64,000 nucleotides of DNA from Pseudoalteromonas distincta (GTDB lineage Bacteria; Pseudomonadota; Gammaproteobacteria; Enterobacterales; Alteromonadaceae). A program made the translations under genes and the position numbers. Numbering within the stretch: the first letter of the stretch is position 1; each line of letters begins with the position of its first letter. A model generated the notes under the pieces. That model made no database searches, was not told the DNA's origin, and saw nothing but the letters and a program-made list of their open reading frames with translations. This document shows, piece by piece, positions 57,740 through 63,600 of the stretch. The stretch is from assembly GCF_000814675.1 (NCBI RefSeq), contig NZ_JWIG01000029.1, positions 62,001 through 126,000 on the forward strand, written 5' to 3'.

Positions 57740-58675
57740 TTATGGCATATCTAATAATGTTTGCGTGTGGGCATCTACTTTAACTTCGTAGTTTTTAGCG
57801 CTTAAGCCCAATAGCTCCGGCAAGGTTGCCGCTATACAAATAGACGAGAACGTACCCACTACAATGCCAGTAAATAATGCAATAGCAAAGCCTTGCAGTG
57901 GTGCGCCTGCAAGTAACCAAACGCTCGCAACCGTTGCAAGTGTGGTACCCGACGTTATTAAGGTGCGCGTTAGTGTGCTTTTAATCGCATTATTAATAAT
58001 AGTCGCTGGGGTAAGTACATTGTTTGATTGAACACGTAAAAGCTCACGTACTCTATCCCCCACTATTATTGAGTCGTTAAGTGAGTAACCAATAATAGCC
58101 AGTAAACTTGCCAGTACGGTTAAGTTAAATTCAATTTGTAATAGTGAAAATAACCCAAGTACGAGTATTAAATCGTGCACTAGCGCAACCACAGAGCCAA
58201 CAGCTAATCGCCATTCAAAACGCACTGCAAGGTAAATCATTACCGCAATCATTGCAGCAAACATTGCTAAACAGCCTTGATCAAATAACTCATCGCCCAC
58301 TTGTGAGCCAATATAAGCTGACGATAATACCTGTGCGTTTATATCATCGTTTTGTGTAACAGCGCTTTGCCAATCAAGGCTATTAGCTGTTGTTGATGCA
58401 CTTGGCGCTTCTCTTAATTGAAAATGACTATTACCTTGCGCGGTTAGCTCAAACTCACCGTTGTGATTTTTAGCAATAAACGATTGAAGCTCTTTTAGCT
58501 CAACACTTTGACTGGTTGTAAACTCAGTTAAATAACCGCCGGTAAAATCTAGGCCAAAATTTAGACCCTTTTGTGCAAGCGTAAATACTGATAGCAGCAC
58601 TAAGATGGCGCTTAAAAGCATGCCCATAAAGCGTAAACGTGTGCCCTTTTCACCTTTCAAAAAATAATTAAGCAT
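57740..58675 (-). CDS. secF: Protein translocase subunit SecF (probable second copy)
   Basis: A 311-residue RND-family membrane protein with six helices. Family segments are GLNFGLDFTGGYLTEF, LAVRFEWRLAVGSVVALVHDL with the Asp of SecF, and IIGYSLNDSIIVGDRVRELLR. With SecD it uses the ion gradient to help proteins leave the Sec channel. It overlaps secD by eight bases. There is no yajC, tgt or queA next to it, unlike the main secDF locus of gammaproteobacteria. The vemP-like gene upstream suggests it corresponds to Vibrio SecF2. Confidence 0.9.
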   Translation of the reverse strand: MLNYFLKGEKGTRLRFMGMLLSAILVLLSVFTLAQKGLNFGLDFTGGYLTEFTTSQSVELKELQSFIAKNHNGEFELTAQGNSHFQLREAPSASTTANSLDWQSAVTQNDDINAQVLSSAYIGSQVGDELFDQGCLAMFAAMIAVMIYLAVRFEWRLAVGSVVALVHDLILVLGLFSLLQIEFNLTVLASLLAIIGYSLNDSIIVGDRVRELLRVQSNNVLTPATIINNAIKSTLTRTLITSGTTLATVASVWLLAGAPLQGFAIALFTGIVVGTFSSICIAATLPELLGLSAKNYEVKVDAHTQTLLDMP

Positions 58676-60506
58676 GTGCTTTTACTCCTGCTTTTTTACC
58701 CATTTTTAAATACAACGTTTGGCTTAATATTTTTGATACGTACACACCTGTAAATACAGACGTTAAAAGCCCCAGTGCGAGTGTAATGGCAAAACCTTTA
58801 ACGGGCCCATAGCCTATGCCGTATAAGATAAGTGCGGTGATCATGGTCGTTATATTGGCATCAAATATTGTATTTGCGGCTTGTTTATAACCCTCTTGAA
58901 TAGCTTGATATGGTGCACGGCCTTGGCGACGTTCTTCTTTAATACGTTCAAATATTATTACGTTAGTGTCTACCGCCATACCTATCGTTAGCACCAGGCC
59001 AGCGATACCCGGAAGCGTTAACACAACCCCTGGTAATAATGACATTAAGCCCACAAGCGACGTTAAATTTAATATAAGTGCTACGTTTGCAATAAGGCCT
59101 AAACGGCGATACCAAAGCGCCATAAATGCAAGGGTAATACCCATACCTAACATAAGCGCGGCTAAGCCATTACTAATATTTTCGCTGCCGAGGCTTGGCC
59201 CTATAGTTTGTTCGTGCACAATTGTAACGGGTGCTGTAAGCGAGCCTGCACGTAATAACAATGCTAGGTCGGCTGCCGCTTGTTGGCTTTTCATATTGGT
59301 AATACTAAAACGCGAACTTAAATGCTGAGCAATATTGGCAACGTTAATAACTTCGCTTTTTTTAACGACTTCGCCTTTAGCGTTTTGAGAATACTCAGAG
59401 TAAACCGTCGCCATTGGCTTACCAATATTGGCTTTTGAAAACGCCGACATTGCATCCCCGCCTTGGCCGTCTAGGCTTAGTTGTACAAGTGGTTTACCCC
59501 AATCGTCGCGGCCTATGTTTGCATTATTAATATGATCGCCTGTAAAAATTGGCACAGGATCGAGCTTTATGGTTCCGCCCGATTGCATATTAAATGTTTG
59601 CCCGCCAATTTCTTTTAATTGATAAAAACCAAGCGATGCTGTTGCACCAATAATACGTTTTGCTTCGGTTGGATCTTGCACGCCAGGAAGCTCTATACGA
59701 ATGCGATGTTTGCCTTGTTGCTGTGTTATCGCTTCGGTAATGCCTAACTCTTCAATACGTGAACGAAGGGTTGTGAGTGTTTGCCCCATTACTTCTTTAT
59801 CAAAGCTGCTGCGGCCTTGCTCTGAATAACTAAATTTGGCAGTTTTAACGCTGCCGTTATTGCTTGTTACAACGGCTAAATTAGCAAATCGGCTTTGTAG
59901 CTCTTCAATAACTGGGGTTAACTTGTCGGTTGAATTAGGCAATGCGTTTATTTCAAACCCGTGCTGAGTTTGCTGCGCTTTTACGCCATGTGCTTTTTGC
60001 TTAATGATGATTGATTTAGCTTGTTGATACGCACTGACTAATTGCTCATCAACGGCTTTATCTAAATCTACGTCTAGTACAAATAGCACACCGCCATTTA
60101 AATCAAGGCCCAGCTTTATTGGTGATAAACCAAAATCTTGTAACCATGTTGGGCTGGTTGCATGCTCAACAATTTTAACTTGCGTGTTTGGATATTGCGC
60201 TTTTATAGCCGCTTGCGCCTGAGCGCTTTTAGTTGGCTCGTTTAAAAGTATATTAATAGTGGATTGCTTATCTAAACCCTGCTCAACCTCTAGCCCTTGT
60301 TTATTTAAAAAAGTAACTAGCGTTTTAGTGCTCGGTAAAGATTGCGTTTCGCTGTGCGGAGCAGCACTGATGTGCAACCACGATTTATTTGGGTATAAAT
60401 TTGGTAATGCGCTGATAGCTAATAAAACCAATACTATTAGCATGGCTATATAGCTTAATTTGAACTTAGCCGTAGACGGCTTTTTATCTTTTTTAAAACT
60501 TAACAT
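58668..60506 (-). CDS. secD: Protein translocase subunit SecD (probable second, VemP-controlled copy)
   Basis: A 612-residue RND-family membrane protein (E. coli SecD 615) with a large periplasmic domain and six helices. Family segments are GLDLNGGVLFVLDVD (GLDLRGG in E. coli), RIRIELPGVQDPTEAKRIIG and GMAVDTNVIIFERIKEE, whose Asp 513 corresponds to the proton- or sodium-translocation Asp 519 of E. coli. AAGGA lies six bases before the ATG but is part of an 8 bp helix with the end of the vemP-like gene region, so it may be masked. Absence of yajC and the upstream arrest-peptide-like ORF indicate a regulated paralogue rather than the housekeeping copy. Confidence 0.92.
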   Translation of the reverse strand: MLSFKKDKKPSTAKFKLSYIAMLIVLVLLAISALPNLYPNKSWLHISAAPHSETQSLPSTKTLVTFLNKQGLEVEQGLDKQSTINILLNEPTKSAQAQAAIKAQYPNTQVKIVEHATSPTWLQDFGLSPIKLGLDLNGGVLFVLDVDLDKAVDEQLVSAYQQAKSIIIKQKAHGVKAQQTQHGFEINALPNSTDKLTPVIEELQSRFANLAVVTSNNGSVKTAKFSYSEQGRSSFDKEVMGQTLTTLRSRIEELGITEAITQQQGKHRIRIELPGVQDPTEAKRIIGATASLGFYQLKEIGGQTFNMQSGGTIKLDPVPIFTGDHINNANIGRDDWGKPLVQLSLDGQGGDAMSAFSKANIGKPMATVYSEYSQNAKGEVVKKSEVINVANIAQHLSSRFSITNMKSQQAAADLALLLRAGSLTAPVTIVHEQTIGPSLGSENISNGLAALMLGMGITLAFMALWYRRLGLIANVALILNLTSLVGLMSLLPGVVLTLPGIAGLVLTIGMAVDTNVIIFERIKEERRQGRAPYQAIQEGYKQAANTIFDANITTMITALILYGIGYGPVKGFAITLALGLLTSVFTGVYVSKILSQTLYLKMGKKAGVKAHA

Positions 60507-60512
60507 GTTGAA

Positions 60513-60611
60513 TCCTTATTGCCAGCAAAGCTAGCAACGTACTTTTTAAAAGCACAATTAATCTGCAGGCTAAAACTTTAAAAGTTAAAACCTAATAAAA
60601 TTAAATAAGGA
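60513..60611 (-). promoter_or_regulatory. Candidate SD-masking RNA structure between vemP-like gene and secD
   Basis: On the minus strand TCCTTATT (60611-60604) just after the vemP-like stop is the exact complement of AATAAGGA (60520-60513), which contains the secD ribosome site. An 8 bp hairpin, TTGCTAGC/GCTGGCAA with a 3-base loop, sits right before the site. In Vibrio the vemP-secD2 mRNA masks the secD2 ribosome site in a stem-loop that a stalled ribosome opens. The same layout is seen here. Confidence 0.7.
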
Positions 60612-60614
60612 AAA

Positions 60615-61076
60615 TCAAGCGTGGTAGGTAGTTACAGCTTTGTAGAGTAAATTAACGTCTTTCCAGCCACTCAAACGCGACTTTTTACTATTAGTTACAA
60701 ACGTATACCAAGGCTGTATAGGATTAATCGCTCTTGGTCGTAAGAATATATGCCTAACAAGATTTTGAGCAAAAAATTCAAAAACCACATCGTATTCTGG
60801 CTCACTTTGAACAGTGTGCAAAAACAATGATGAATTATTGGCAGTTAACCTTGGTTGGTGCGCGTCAAAATCGGTTTGATGCGTTTTTTTATGCTGCGAA
60901 GTATCTACAGACTTACTAATAGGCTGTATTTTAGTTAAATCGGCAATATCAGTAAGCGAAACCTGCGTACTAACATTGATATTTAAATTTTGTGAGGCGC
61001 CCATAGCATTGCTCTGCACACTAAAAAGTGCAGCAAGTAGCAAAAAGGCAGTTAAAAACACTCTAAATTTAAACAT
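60615..61076 (-). CDS. VemP-like secretory arrest peptide (SecDF regulator)
   Basis: A 153-residue protein with a signal peptide (MFKFRVFLTAFLLLAALFSVQSNA). Its C-terminus, RLSGWKDVNLLYKAVTTY at residues 134-151, aligns with the arrest motif of Vibrio alginolyticus VemP as I recall it (R-I-x-G-W-K-E-T-N-A-M-Y-V-A-L-N). Arg, Gly, Trp, Lys, Asn, Tyr and Ala are identical and most others are conservative. The protein length (VemP 159), the signal peptide, the motif next to the stop codon and the position upstream of secD-secF all agree with VemP. Predicted role: stalls its own ribosome when export is slow, which opens the secD ribosome site. Confidence 0.8.
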   Translation of the reverse strand: MFKFRVFLTAFLLLAALFSVQSNAMGASQNLNINVSTQVSLTDIADLTKIQPISKSVDTSQHKKTHQTDFDAHQPRLTANNSSLFLHTVQSEPEYDVVFEFFAQNLVRHIFLRPRAINPIQPWYTFVTNSKKSRLSGWKDVNLLYKAVTTYHA

Positions 61077-61536
61077 TCACGTTTTAAAACTAAAATAAGT
61101 GATGCGTAGTATATAAGGGCTAGTATTTAAAATACAACAGCCTGCTCGTTAATTTAGTTTGATTTTACAACTTAACCTGAGGCGCTGGCGTTGCTTTATT
61201 TAGAACCAATTATTTAAAGATTTTTTTGGTAATTTCATTTATAAAATATGTTGCGCTCAAATCTACTACTTCGACAGCATCTCTTTTCCTTACCAAATAC
61301 AAAAGGAGTAGTTATTTAGGGTTAATTTTAATTTATTACTTGTAGTTTTATTATTCATTTTGCATTCATTTGGTCGTTTTTTTTGGTAAAATAATAAATA
61401 AGCCATAAAACTTCGTACTATAAATGGTCAAGTTGCAGCGGCTATACGAAATTAGTATAATTAAATGTAAACAAATAGCTAAATTTTGATTTTCTTAATT
61501 ATGTTATGGATAGTAGATAAGGCAGGGAAAGTCATT
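61077..61536. other. Divergent intergenic region, vemP-like gene and HAD protein
   Basis: This 460-base AT-rich gap holds the putative promoter of the vemP-like gene near 61108-61137 and presumably that of the HAD gene. I searched for JUMPstart or ops elements because the next gene is typical of surface-sugar loci and found none. Long T and A runs lie at 61370-61400. No coding frame or repeat is convincing. Confidence 0.5.
61108..61137 (-). promoter_or_regulatory. Candidate sigma-70 promoter of the vemP-like gene
   Basis: On the minus strand TTGTAT (-35, plus 61132-61137) and TATACT (-10, plus 61108-61113) are separated by 18 bases. Transcription would begin about 25 bases before the ATG at 61076. 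No other promoter is seen between the vemP-like gene and secD, which suggests a vemP-secD-secF transcript. Confidence 0.4.
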
Positions 61537-63600
61537 ATGGAAAAAAACATATTTAGTAAAATAGCCTCAAAATTTTACAACAAAAGCTTAAAGCTAATAA
61601 ATACCCTAAGTAATGACACTGACCTAAAAAAGCTAATAAACAACAGTGAAATAGTCTCTTTTGATATCTTTGATACTGTAATCCTTAGAAAAGTCTTCGA
61701 ACCAGCTGATATTTTTACAATAGTTGAGAATTTATATAATGATGAACATAAAAAGCTAGACATAGACTTTAAAAGCATCCGAGGTAATGCCGAGGCAGAA
61801 GCAACAAAAATACTAGCTGAGCTAAATGGTACCCAATCCATAGGTTTGGATGAGATATATGCACATATACAAAAAACACAAAATCTAGATAGCAAAGTAA
61901 TTAACATATTGAAAGCGCTAGAAATCGAAATAGAATTAAAATTTTGTGTCAAAAATGAATATATGCACTCTTTTTATCAATACTGTATTGATAATGGTAA
62001 AAAGGTTATTTTCACCTCGGACATGTACTTACCGGAGTACGTGATAAAAAAAATTCTTTACGATAATGGGTATACAAAATTTCATAAATTATTTTTATCC
62101 TCTGTAATTCGTAAATCAAAGTCTAAAGGAGGGTTATATCCGCATATACTTAAAGACCTATCCTGTAAACCGTCTAAGCTTTTACATATTGGCGATTATT
62201 ACTTCGCCGATGTCATTAACGCGATGAAAGAAGGCATCAAACCTTATTATTACAAAAAAACCAGTGAATATGCGCTTAGCCATCATTCATTTAAAAGACT
62301 AAGGCAGCTATACCCTTCTAAACTCTCTATAGAAGAATCTATTTATTTTGCGACTATCATCAACAAAACGTTTACCCAAAGAGATAATAACAACGAGAAT
62401 ATATGGTACGACTTTGGTTATGTATACTGTGGAATAATATATTTTGGCTTAACTCGTTGGTTAACTAGCCAGGTTTTGCATCAAGAAATAGAACATATAT
62501 TTTTCCTTGCTCGCGACGGCTATATTATGCACAAAGCCTATAGCCTTATGAATCAGGGAGCTAAAACGCCTGTTAGTAAGTATATGTACGCATCAAGACG
62601 AGCTATAAACATCCCAACTATATACAATGGAATCGATGAATATTCGATAAAAGTACTATGCCATTTTGTTCCTAATTTGAGCGTCGCTAATTACCTTGAT
62701 AGAGTTGATATAGATGCAACAAAACATATTAAAAAAATAAAAGAAGTTGGATTTTTTGATCAAAATCATATAATTGACACAGATAACGATAAGGATAAAT
62801 TAGCAAAACTCTTTCATTTATTAGTTGATGATGTATGCAGTATTGCAGCTGTAGAAAGAGAAAACCTACTAATTTACCTAAATCAAATTGGGTTTATGGA
62901 TGCCAAAAAAGTCGCGATTGTTGACATTGGGTGGCAAGGGACAATTCAGAACTCATTAAATAAGCTAATGTTATTAGAAAATAATGAAATAGACATTAAT
63001 GGTTATTACCTAGGCACATTTCAAACTGTTCTGAAATTTGCTGAAAAAGGATTTCCGATGTCAGGTTATATGTGTAACTTTTCAGAACCTAAAAATAATT
63101 TTCAGGTCTTATCGGGAGGTGTACATATGCTCGAATTTATTTTTTCGGCACCTCATGGCTCTGTAATAAAATTTGATAAAAAAAATGATGAAGTAATAGC
63201 TATATTTGAACCTAATGATTTTTCTAATAACAAATTAGACACAATAAACGAATTTCAAAAAGGAGCTATGGACTTTATTTCTGATTTTATGGCTATTGAA
63301 AGAGATTATAAAAAAATAAATATCGCTCCTGAAACGGCTATAAAACCTATATCTAGATTATTAAAAACTCCTACCTATAGCGAGTCTGTGAACTTTGGTA
63401 ATCTCAAACACTCTGAGTATGTAGGAGCAAATAGCCATGAAAGTTACTTTGCGAAATCGCCTGATCCATTAAAAATGTATCTTAATCCAATTAAGTTTAA
63501 GCAAACCTATAACAAATCATTATGGAAAGCTGGCTTCAGAAAGCGCTACATGAGATATATTCTACCAGAAAACATATACTGCTTTTTCAGAAAGCATTAA
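61537..63600 (+). CDS. Large HAD-superfamily hydrolase-like protein (COG5610 type)
   Basis: A 687-residue cytoplasmic protein. Residues ~35-265 hold a HAD domain: SFDIFDTVILRK (motif I, DxD-like), VIFTSDMYLP (motif II), SKSKGGLYPHIL with the motif III Lys, and LLHIGDYYFADVINAM (motif IV). The C-terminal ~400 residues include HIFFLARDGYIMHKAY and VAIVDIGWQGTIQNSLNKL, typical of these large HAD proteins often found in capsule or O-antigen loci. The exact reaction is unknown. The gene is more AT-rich in codon use than its neighbours, which suggests transfer. AGGGA precedes ATG 61537. Confidence 0.8.
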   Translation: MEKNIFSKIASKFYNKSLKLINTLSNDTDLKKLINNSEIVSFDIFDTVILRKVFEPADIFTIVENLYNDEHKKLDIDFKSIRGNAEAEATKILAELNGTQSIGLDEIYAHIQKTQNLDSKVINILKALEIEIELKFCVKNEYMHSFYQYCIDNGKKVIFTSDMYLPEYVIKKILYDNGYTKFHKLFLSSVIRKSKSKGGLYPHILKDLSCKPSKLLHIGDYYFADVINAMKEGIKPYYYKKTSEYALSHHSFKRLRQLYPSKLSIEESIYFATIINKTFTQRDNNNENIWYDFGYVYCGIIYFGLTRWLTSQVLHQEIEHIFFLARDGYIMHKAYSLMNQGAKTPVSKYMYASRRAINIPTIYNGIDEYSIKVLCHFVPNLSVANYLDRVDIDATKHIKKIKEVGFFDQNHIIDTDNDKDKLAKLFHLLVDDVCSIAAVERENLLIYLNQIGFMDAKKVAIVDIGWQGTIQNSLNKLMLLENNEIDINGYYLGTFQTVLKFAEKGFPMSGYMCNFSEPKNNFQVLSGGVHMLEFIFSAPHGSVIKFDKKNDEVIAIFEPNDFSNNKLDTINEFQKGAMDFISDFMAIERDYKKINIAPETAIKPISRLLKTPTYSESVNFGNLKHSEYVGANSHESYFAKSPDPLKMYLNPIKFKQTYNKSLWKAGFRKRYMRYILPENIYCFFRKH

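Follow-up and report, generated by a model that had tools for sequence, protein, structure and literature searches.

A probable VemP-type arrest leader before a second secD-secF pair in Pseudoalteromonas distincta, with related leaders before S41 peptidase and DedA genes

VemP of Vibrio alginolyticus, an exported leader peptide encoded before secD2 and secF2, is a reference case for force-sensing arrest peptides, and its stalling of the ribosome has been published (PMC5449182, PMC7793623, PMC11470409). The residue in the P site of the stalled ribosome is Q156 (PMC5449182), and the arrest sequence is HRIXGWKETNAMYVXLNXX, in which X marks unimportant positions; the P-site residue is also reported to be unimportant for arrest (PMC7897499). 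The VemP operon has been called specifically conserved among Vibrio (PMC11470409, 2024), and a survey restricted to leaders of sec and yidC genes reported 339 VemP-like sequences, a cluster of 339 genomes, with an RxxxWKxxNxxY-like motif upstream of secDF (PMC10987492). In this report, a 153-residue leader open reading frame (ORF) before a secD-secF pair of Pseudoalteromonas distincta is compared with these systems. It lies in a stretch of 64,000 nucleotides (nt), called the window (assembly GCF_000814675.1, contig NZ_JWIG01000029.1, positions 62,001 to 126,000), and all coordinates count from the first letter of this stretch. The window very likely carries a VemP-type monitoring-substrate operon, leader-secD2-secF2, acting as an arrest switch for a second SecDF (SecDF2). 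The leader probably jams its own ribosome when export fails, which would turn on a spare export motor; stalling is published for V. alginolyticus VemP, while the leader in the window is known here from its sequence.

Other described systems share parts of this logic. In Alteromonas naphthalenivorans, the leader uDF_RQH_Enterobacterales stands before secDF2 together with a stem masking the Shine-Dalgarno (SD) site, and arrest has been shown there, but it has an RGPP arrest motif in place of the core found in the window (PMC10987492). SecM-secA and MifM-yidC2 follow the same monitoring-substrate logic with other arrest sequences and targets. In Rhodobacter capsulatus, CutF is an exported leader with a stalling-like C-terminus that opens an SD-shielding stem, and its target is the downstream copper oxidase gene cutO, outside the Sec machinery (PMC9973294). 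CutF differs in sensing copper through its own metal-binding motif and in its proline-rich stalling motif, and CutF-like proteins are said to be widespread (PMC9973294). CutF is thus a precedent for the logic of the re-targeted leaders described below.

The leader ORF (60615..61076, minus strand, as for all operon features below) lies directly 5' of secD2 (58668..60506) and secF2 (57740..58675), both recognised by Pfam and NCBIfam, as the first-pass annotation had described. It starts with MFKFRVFLTAFLLLAALFSVQSNA, of which residues 1-24 (61005..61076) are signal-peptide-like by eye, with a basic start, a hydrophobic core and S-N-A, and it ends with RLSGWKDVNLLYKAVTTYHA. Residues 134-151 are RLSGWKDVNLLYKAVTTY, with the core R-x-S-G-W-K-x-x-N-x-x-Y. 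Alignment of the arrest segment (residues 134-152, 60621..60677) to VemP, with Q156 as the P-site reference, places Y151 (60624-60626) in the predicted P site and H152 (60621-60623) in the predicted A site. The solved VemP nascent chain 5nwy_s (HRISGWKETNAMYVALNS) shares R, S, G, W, K, N, Y and A with this segment. The first-pass annotation had named Arg, Gly, Trp, Lys, Asn, Tyr and Ala; the first six stand among the published arrest-relevant residues, and the Ala falls on an X of the arrest sequence. At other positions of that sequence, I/L, E/D, M/L and L/V are conservative exchanges, and N154 is replaced by T.

Profile A1 of the leader family, searched against PDB sequences, gave 5nwy_s as its top match, aligned on the motif (E 0.091), and when C-terminal parts were compared, the family profile (A6, 18 rows) matched the profile built from ten Vibrio VemPs (A7) on the motif with a probability of 94.4 and E 8.4e-8. 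The degenerate pattern W-K-D-(A/V)-N-L-(L/F)-Y has a single match across the whole genome, and because the motif and the masking position also recur in relatives, the motif is more than chance. The likeness to VemP-SecD2F2 covers the exported leader, the R-x-x-G-W-K-x-x-N-x-x-Y core, a similar tail length, a masked secD2 site and a second SecDF from the same group (PMC5449182, PMC7793623, PMC11470409). The differences include V-T at L153-N154, a conserved middle module of its own and a four-way RNA junction. In 12 Vibrio VemP loci, selected by an upstream GWKE[ST]NxMY pattern, the end reads L-N-S in 12/12 with Q in 11/12, versus V-T-T-Y in the window. The L-N-S-Q end is also absent from the other Vibrio leaders L168 and L169, and its Ser and Gln are X positions in the published arrest sequence (PMC7897499). 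As judged from these alignments, the tunnel core is common to the window leader and VemP, and the end predicted to lie next to the peptidyl-transferase centre differs. The leader has an RxxxWKxxNxxY-like motif near its C-terminus, as defined in the 339-genome survey, and may belong to that cluster (PMC10987492); the features of a V. alginolyticus-type VemP in the narrow sense, namely the full arrest sequence, the L-N-S-Q end and the Arg-85 element, are absent. A further trait of that narrow type is its induction at low Na+. The earlier suggestion that such a system may be undescribed outside Vibrio therefore stands only in part: it agrees with the operon being called Vibrio-specific (PMC11470409), and it is weakened by the 339 published sequences, whose taxa are not visible in the accessible part of the survey (PMC10987492).

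The leader is found well beyond the window. It was matched in 75 of 196 relatives, spread over 7 of 56 genera, and profile A1 found it in 78 of 394 genomes (19 of 114 genera) of an order-wide draw. A class-wide draw of 369 genomes, searched with a short profile of 13 rows and 89 positions, gave matches in the window's own genome and in G108, and none outside the order. A named collection, scanned with the pattern [LI]SGWKD[AG]N and thus biased to that core, contains 57 loci in Pseudoalteromonas, Colwellia and relatives, Thalassotalea, Aliikangiella, Aliiglaciecola, Vibrio and others, and a leader plus SecD was recognised by script in 52 of these. Three candidates were rejected: L341 and L342 (in G148 and G434) are a different 204-residue protein of which only the middle part matches, and L170 of Pseudohongiella has no SecD and a match limited to the tail.

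The C-terminal motif is conserved among these homologues. In 23 aligned leaders, R134, S136, W138, K139, N142, Y145 and T150 are invariant in the C-terminal part, as are R76, F85, Q90, P93, Y95, E100 and F101 in the middle module. W123 (60708..60710) is invariant as well and is a possible counterpart of VemP W124. A set of 40 unique class I leaders, whose rows were pre-filtered on the pattern [WC][KQHR]..N..[YF], keeps T150 in 39, Y151 in 38 and H152 in 38 cases, and position 151 is followed by two codons in every one of them. For 21 class I leaders, the ratio of non-synonymous to synonymous differences (pN/pS) is lowest in residues 133-153, at 0.08, followed by residues 73-104 at 0.13 and the signal-like start at 0.25, and it rises to 0.33 in the second spacer and 0.63 in the first. 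The contrast between arrest segment and spacer indicates that selection acts on the peptide. Residues 73-104 (60765..60860), with the consensus QPRLTxxNSSLFLHxxQxEPxYxxxFEFF, are a candidate translocon-contact segment. In L061 and L064 the core is GWQ or GWH in place of GWK, with two Cys and one Cys near the end.

The downstream SecD is of the SecD2 type. A second SecD in the same genome, 40% identical to that of the window, lies within a tgt-yajC-secD-secF locus (genes read by eye). In an unrooted tree of 32 SecD sequences, with labels assigned from the higher- and the lower-scoring hit to the window SecD, 17 SecD2-type proteins are split from 15 SecD1 proteins by one branch with support 100/100. 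The window SecD groups with the Vibrio vemP-linked SecD2, apart from the copy in the tgt-yajC-secD1-secF1 locus; three SecD2-type members come from genomes with pattern-selected Vibrio VemPs, and G125 contributes two SecD2-type rows, with the leader checked for one only. In a census of 108 genomes of the genus, SecD2 is present in 76 and was not found in 32. A leader match occurs in 76/76 genomes with SecD2, and a SecD-linked leader in 0/32 of those without. The leader was seen adjoining secD in 75 of the 76, with G076 ending at a contig edge, and in G083 (L234) 634 nt separate the two. As side observations, G125 (L278, L290) has three SecD matches, of which one scores like SecD1 and the other two are SecD2-type and sit on separate branches, and G006 and G055 each have one TGA within the matched SecD2 stretch.

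Between leader and secD2, the messenger RNA (mRNA) can fold so that the secD ribosome site is hidden. The SD sequence AAGGA (60513..60517) lies 6 nt from the ATG. Exact complementarity between a segment after the leader stop, TCCTTATT at 60611-60604, and the SD segment, AATAAGGA at 60520-60513, had been pointed out from the sequence; both are in place, and RNAfold of 60480-60640 closes a multi-branch structure with this helix at -34.9 kcal/mol (z -1.98, energy matched by 11/200 shuffles). The SD-masking helix H2 pairs 60605-60611 with 60513-60519 and is also found by RNAalifold and in the pair counts. An outer helix H1, seen by RNAalifold and pair counts, joins the end of the leader (60615-60620) to codons just after the secD ATG (60498-60503), and the hairpins H3 (60568..60592), H4 (60538..60556) and H5 (60520..60536, just before the SD) lie within. 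In 19 aligned relatives, RNAalifold predicted 35 pairs, with two-sided changes in seven. Compared with shuffles, 98.0% of cells are paired (92.9), two-sided cells number 39 (12.9) and the covariation score is 0.278 (0.179), each reached by 0/500 shuffles. H1 is paired in 99.1% of cells without any two-sided change, H2 in 98.5%, and H4 in 100% with one-sided changes only, while compensatory changes occur at two pairs of H3 and five of H5. The mRNA structure is thus conserved in position and partly by compensatory change. Other relatives have unrelated sequence at the same position, as in the L035 group, where a ten-pair stem contains CTTCC.

Counted from the first base of the predicted P-site codon, the masking strand begins at a distance of about 15 nt. 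A stalled ribosome covers mRNA to about +15 or +16. In 10 clusters formed from 46 class I sequences with a recognisable SD, the SD paired to nt +13..+23, numbered from the P-site codon, with a mean of 0.67, versus 0.032 in spacer shuffles (maximum 0.110 among 60). Nine of the ten clusters have values of 0.43 to 0.97, reached by 0 to 3 of 60 shuffles; L031 has 0.01, reached by 12 of 60. In the modelled window, opening the SD costs 4.3 kcal/mol when the RNA is free, 3.0 with nt through +15 blocked and 0.5 through +16. Because of this fall at +16, the first-pass proposal that a ribosome stalled near codon 151 would have its front edge at the base of the helix proved right, with about 1 nt to spare. 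The proposed switch would work as follows. Under weak export or with a weak SecDF1, the main copy, the leader would stall its ribosome at Y151 (P site) and H152 (A site); this ribosome would remove H1 and the first pairs of H2, exposing AAGGA for the synthesis of SecD2 and SecF2. Active pulling by Sec would release the stall, and the mRNA would refold. The last silencing step may be made differently from VemP, because residues at the peptidyl-transferase centre differ (L153 to V, N154 to T).

Several results weigh against this VemP-type reading. The number of pairs with two-sided change (7 vs 5.6, reached by 84/500 shuffles) and of further pair types (27 vs 27.5, 409/500) does not exceed shuffles, and H2 itself has no compensatory pair, because five of its seven pairs never vary. 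H2 is barely within reach of a stalled ribosome's predicted front edge. Masking strength alone is unexceptional, since 5/40 spacer shuffles match the value for the window; among 21 loci tested, seven (L031, L033, L034, L025, L023, L048 and L017) lie within their own shuffles (13-34 of 40). On the peptide side, only 6 of 15 marked arrest-relevant VemP positions are kept (R, G, W, K, N and Y). At full length, the leader and Vibrio VemP profiles aligned over nothing but their signal peptides, which is why the C-terminal parts were compared. Also, no Arg stands close behind the short hydrophobic segment SLFLHTVQS, so the VemP Arg-85 element is missing; the invariant R76 precedes this segment in the 23 aligned leaders. 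If the leader were an ordinary small exported protein of the secDF2 operon, the fold alone would give translational coupling and no arrest would be needed, in keeping with the nine differing arrest-relevant positions and with an arrest that is read from sequence. This is unlikely: the strongest constraint falls on the last 20 residues, the VemP core, while the spacer diverges, and the masking strand begins at the edge of a ribosome stalled at codon 151. The VemP-type reading is supported by the conserved motif, whose absence from homologues the first-pass annotation had named as a refuting outcome, by the partly compensatory RNA fold and by the grouping of SecD2 with Vibrio SecD2.

Two further alternatives accept a real arrest or a real motif. 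Arrest could instead occur one codon later, with H152 as the P-site residue, or on the stop codon, T-Y-H then being the active end; this would fit the near-constant T150, Y151 and H152 of class I leaders, and a shift of 3 nt opens H2 fully in the model. Position 152 is, however, H, F, Y, Q or L in relatives, like the F/Y at the A-site position 157 of Vibrio VemP, and some leaders end at H152, so a stall one codon or more further on is less likely, with Y151 the preferred P-site residue. That the motif arose by convergence, separately from Vibrio VemP, would agree with the lack of overall similarity beyond signal peptide and motif, but the leader stands at the same position before SecD2 proteins of one group, and many core-bearing leaders stand before secD across the order, which makes convergence very improbable.

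In Pseudoalteromonas, a second leader class of 26 loci (L213-L238) has Cys in place of W138 in 26/26. The ten unique leaders tabulated have all lost R134 and kept N142; Y145 is kept in nine and is F once. The class profile A4 matches A1 (E 1.5e-15). In Vibrio VemP, W143A is described as arrest-defective (PMC11470409). In predicted folds read by eye without shuffled control, the leader end pairs with the secD start region in 17/26 loci, as in TCACTTATC/GATGAGTGA, and does not in 8/26, with L234 ambiguous. Leaders with Cys for Trp carry the handles L062, L063, L065, L068, L075, L076, L080-L083 and L213-L238, and several have a second Cys after PWY/PWH. An altered tunnel contact or a redox role is possible for these leaders.

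Leaders of this family are also found before genes other than secD. Six of 75 loci checked had no secD, one at a contig end (L047) and five (L060, L066, L070, L074 and L079) with the leader upstream of an S41 peptidase of about 320 residues. Pfam found S41 (PF03572, PF11918) in both peptidases that were run (L060 and L074), and that of L060 resembles IRBP in the PDB; the leader-S41 pair of L060 stands behind a prolyl-oligopeptidase-type gene. The S41-leader profile A3 and A1 align over 75 columns that run across the middle module and the core (E 1.5e-10). In the genus, A3 gave matches in 39/108 genomes, seven of at least 182 bits and G029 at 48 bits, the remainder being SecD-linked leaders. 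All top eight (L183-L189 and L192) have an S41 gene downstream and lie in SecD2-less Pseudoalteromonas genomes, giving 8/32 SecD2-less versus 0/76 SecD2 genomes with an S41-linked leader (Fisher p 3e-5, kinship ignored). An S41 gene of at least 48% identity is present in exactly these eight genomes, and 29 others carry more distant S41 genes (at most 42%).

At the Pseudoalteromonas S41 loci, the last leader codon and stop form one stem arm, CTTTAATTTGT, and the other arm, ACAAATTAAAG, runs into the SD. The gap is 160 nt in L187 and 223 nt in L188, versus 44-51 in the other five resolved loci, and both arm sequences are retained despite the long gaps, those of L187 with a mismatch; the stem is part of the lowest-energy fold in L188 and not in L187. 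In the pairing test, the observed value was reached by 26, 19, 4, 27 and 5 of 60 shuffles in L183-L186 and L189, respectively, by 2 of 60 in L187 and by 1 of 25 in L188.

Across the order, the leader precedes secD in 65 of the 78 genomes of the order-wide draw and another gene in nine; the other four are G418, with a copy at a contig edge, G382, outside the tally, and two spurious matches. Five of the nine have S41 (G050, G267, G226, G501 and G484) and four have DedA (G408, G372, G435 and G488). Pfam assigned the downstream proteins of L317, L318 and L321 to S41, those of L303 and L305 to PF09335 and that of L313 to PF01699, and the four DedA genes are 83-98% identical. The S41 gene of G226 (L324) is in two overlapping frames, as judged by eye. 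The S41-linked leaders L317, L324, L318 and L321 come from two other families (f16 and f6) and have, next to the stop, an arm that is complementary to the SD region, as in AAACCTTATT/AATAAGGTTT of L317, and the DedA-linked leaders L303-L306 carry GWKESNxxYxGxLTYH. L313 is a second leader of the Vibrio-genus genome G418, before a ChaA-like antiporter gene, with a next gene that is DedA-like by eye. In the pairing test, shuffles reached the observed value in 0 of 60 cases for L317 and L321 and in 1 of 60 for L318, where the script misplaced the P site. SD masking at the DedA and ChaA loci is unsupported, because shuffles were often as high (12/25, 4/25, 5/60 and 10/25 for DedA; 23/25 for ChaA).

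SecD2 was seen in 0/16 genomes with S41-linked (12) or DedA-linked (4) leaders, of which G226 is 88% and G267 95% complete. Eight non-genus genomes with such leaders have one SecD each, scoring like SecD1, and G418 has two. The linked S41 proteins are closer to that of L060 (184-199 bits) than are five Pseudoalteromonas paralogues (at most 169), which weakly suggests one ancestral leader-S41 pair. Taken together, VemP-type leaders could be a portable export sensor and no mere accessory of SecDF2, one that in lineages lacking SecDF2 persists before another envelope gene and drives S41 (12 genomes, three families) or DedA (4 genomes, one family) by arrest and unmasking. The arrest would be modular, a fixed tunnel grip combined with ends that can be exchanged beside the peptidyl-transferase centre, and one Pseudoalteromonas group would have even the uL22-contacting Trp replaced by Cys; this joint claim is put forward tentatively. 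In literature on VemP with S41, IRBP, DedA, ChaA or Alteromonadales, no published re-targeted VemP relative was found. Since the 339-genome survey took only sec and yidC leaders, the S41- and DedA-linked leaders lie outside its set (PMC10987492).

An Rfam scan of 60300-61500 gave no match up to E 1, and a promoter scan found 2 sites versus a mean of 4.0 in shuffles. For the leader, matches to LT-IIB (Pfam, E 0.16) and to a phage tail needle (phmmer, E 0.42) were rejected as noise. The divergent neighbour at 61486-63600 on the plus strand is a 704-residue ORF with a HAD-like start by eye, SFDIFDTVILRK, and no operon link was seen.

A VemP-type system can be traced through the order of the window, where natural variants separate the tunnel core from the end at the peptidyl-transferase centre. 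Such leader variants are ready-made test sets for the arrest mechanism. More broadly, the sequences suggest a sensor leader with a constant tunnel core, an exchangeable end and changing targets. If this is true, the S41- and DedA-linked leaders would extend the VemP-type export sensor to genes outside the Sec/YidC machinery, and cells without SecDF2 would answer export failure by envelope proteolysis or DedA functions instead.

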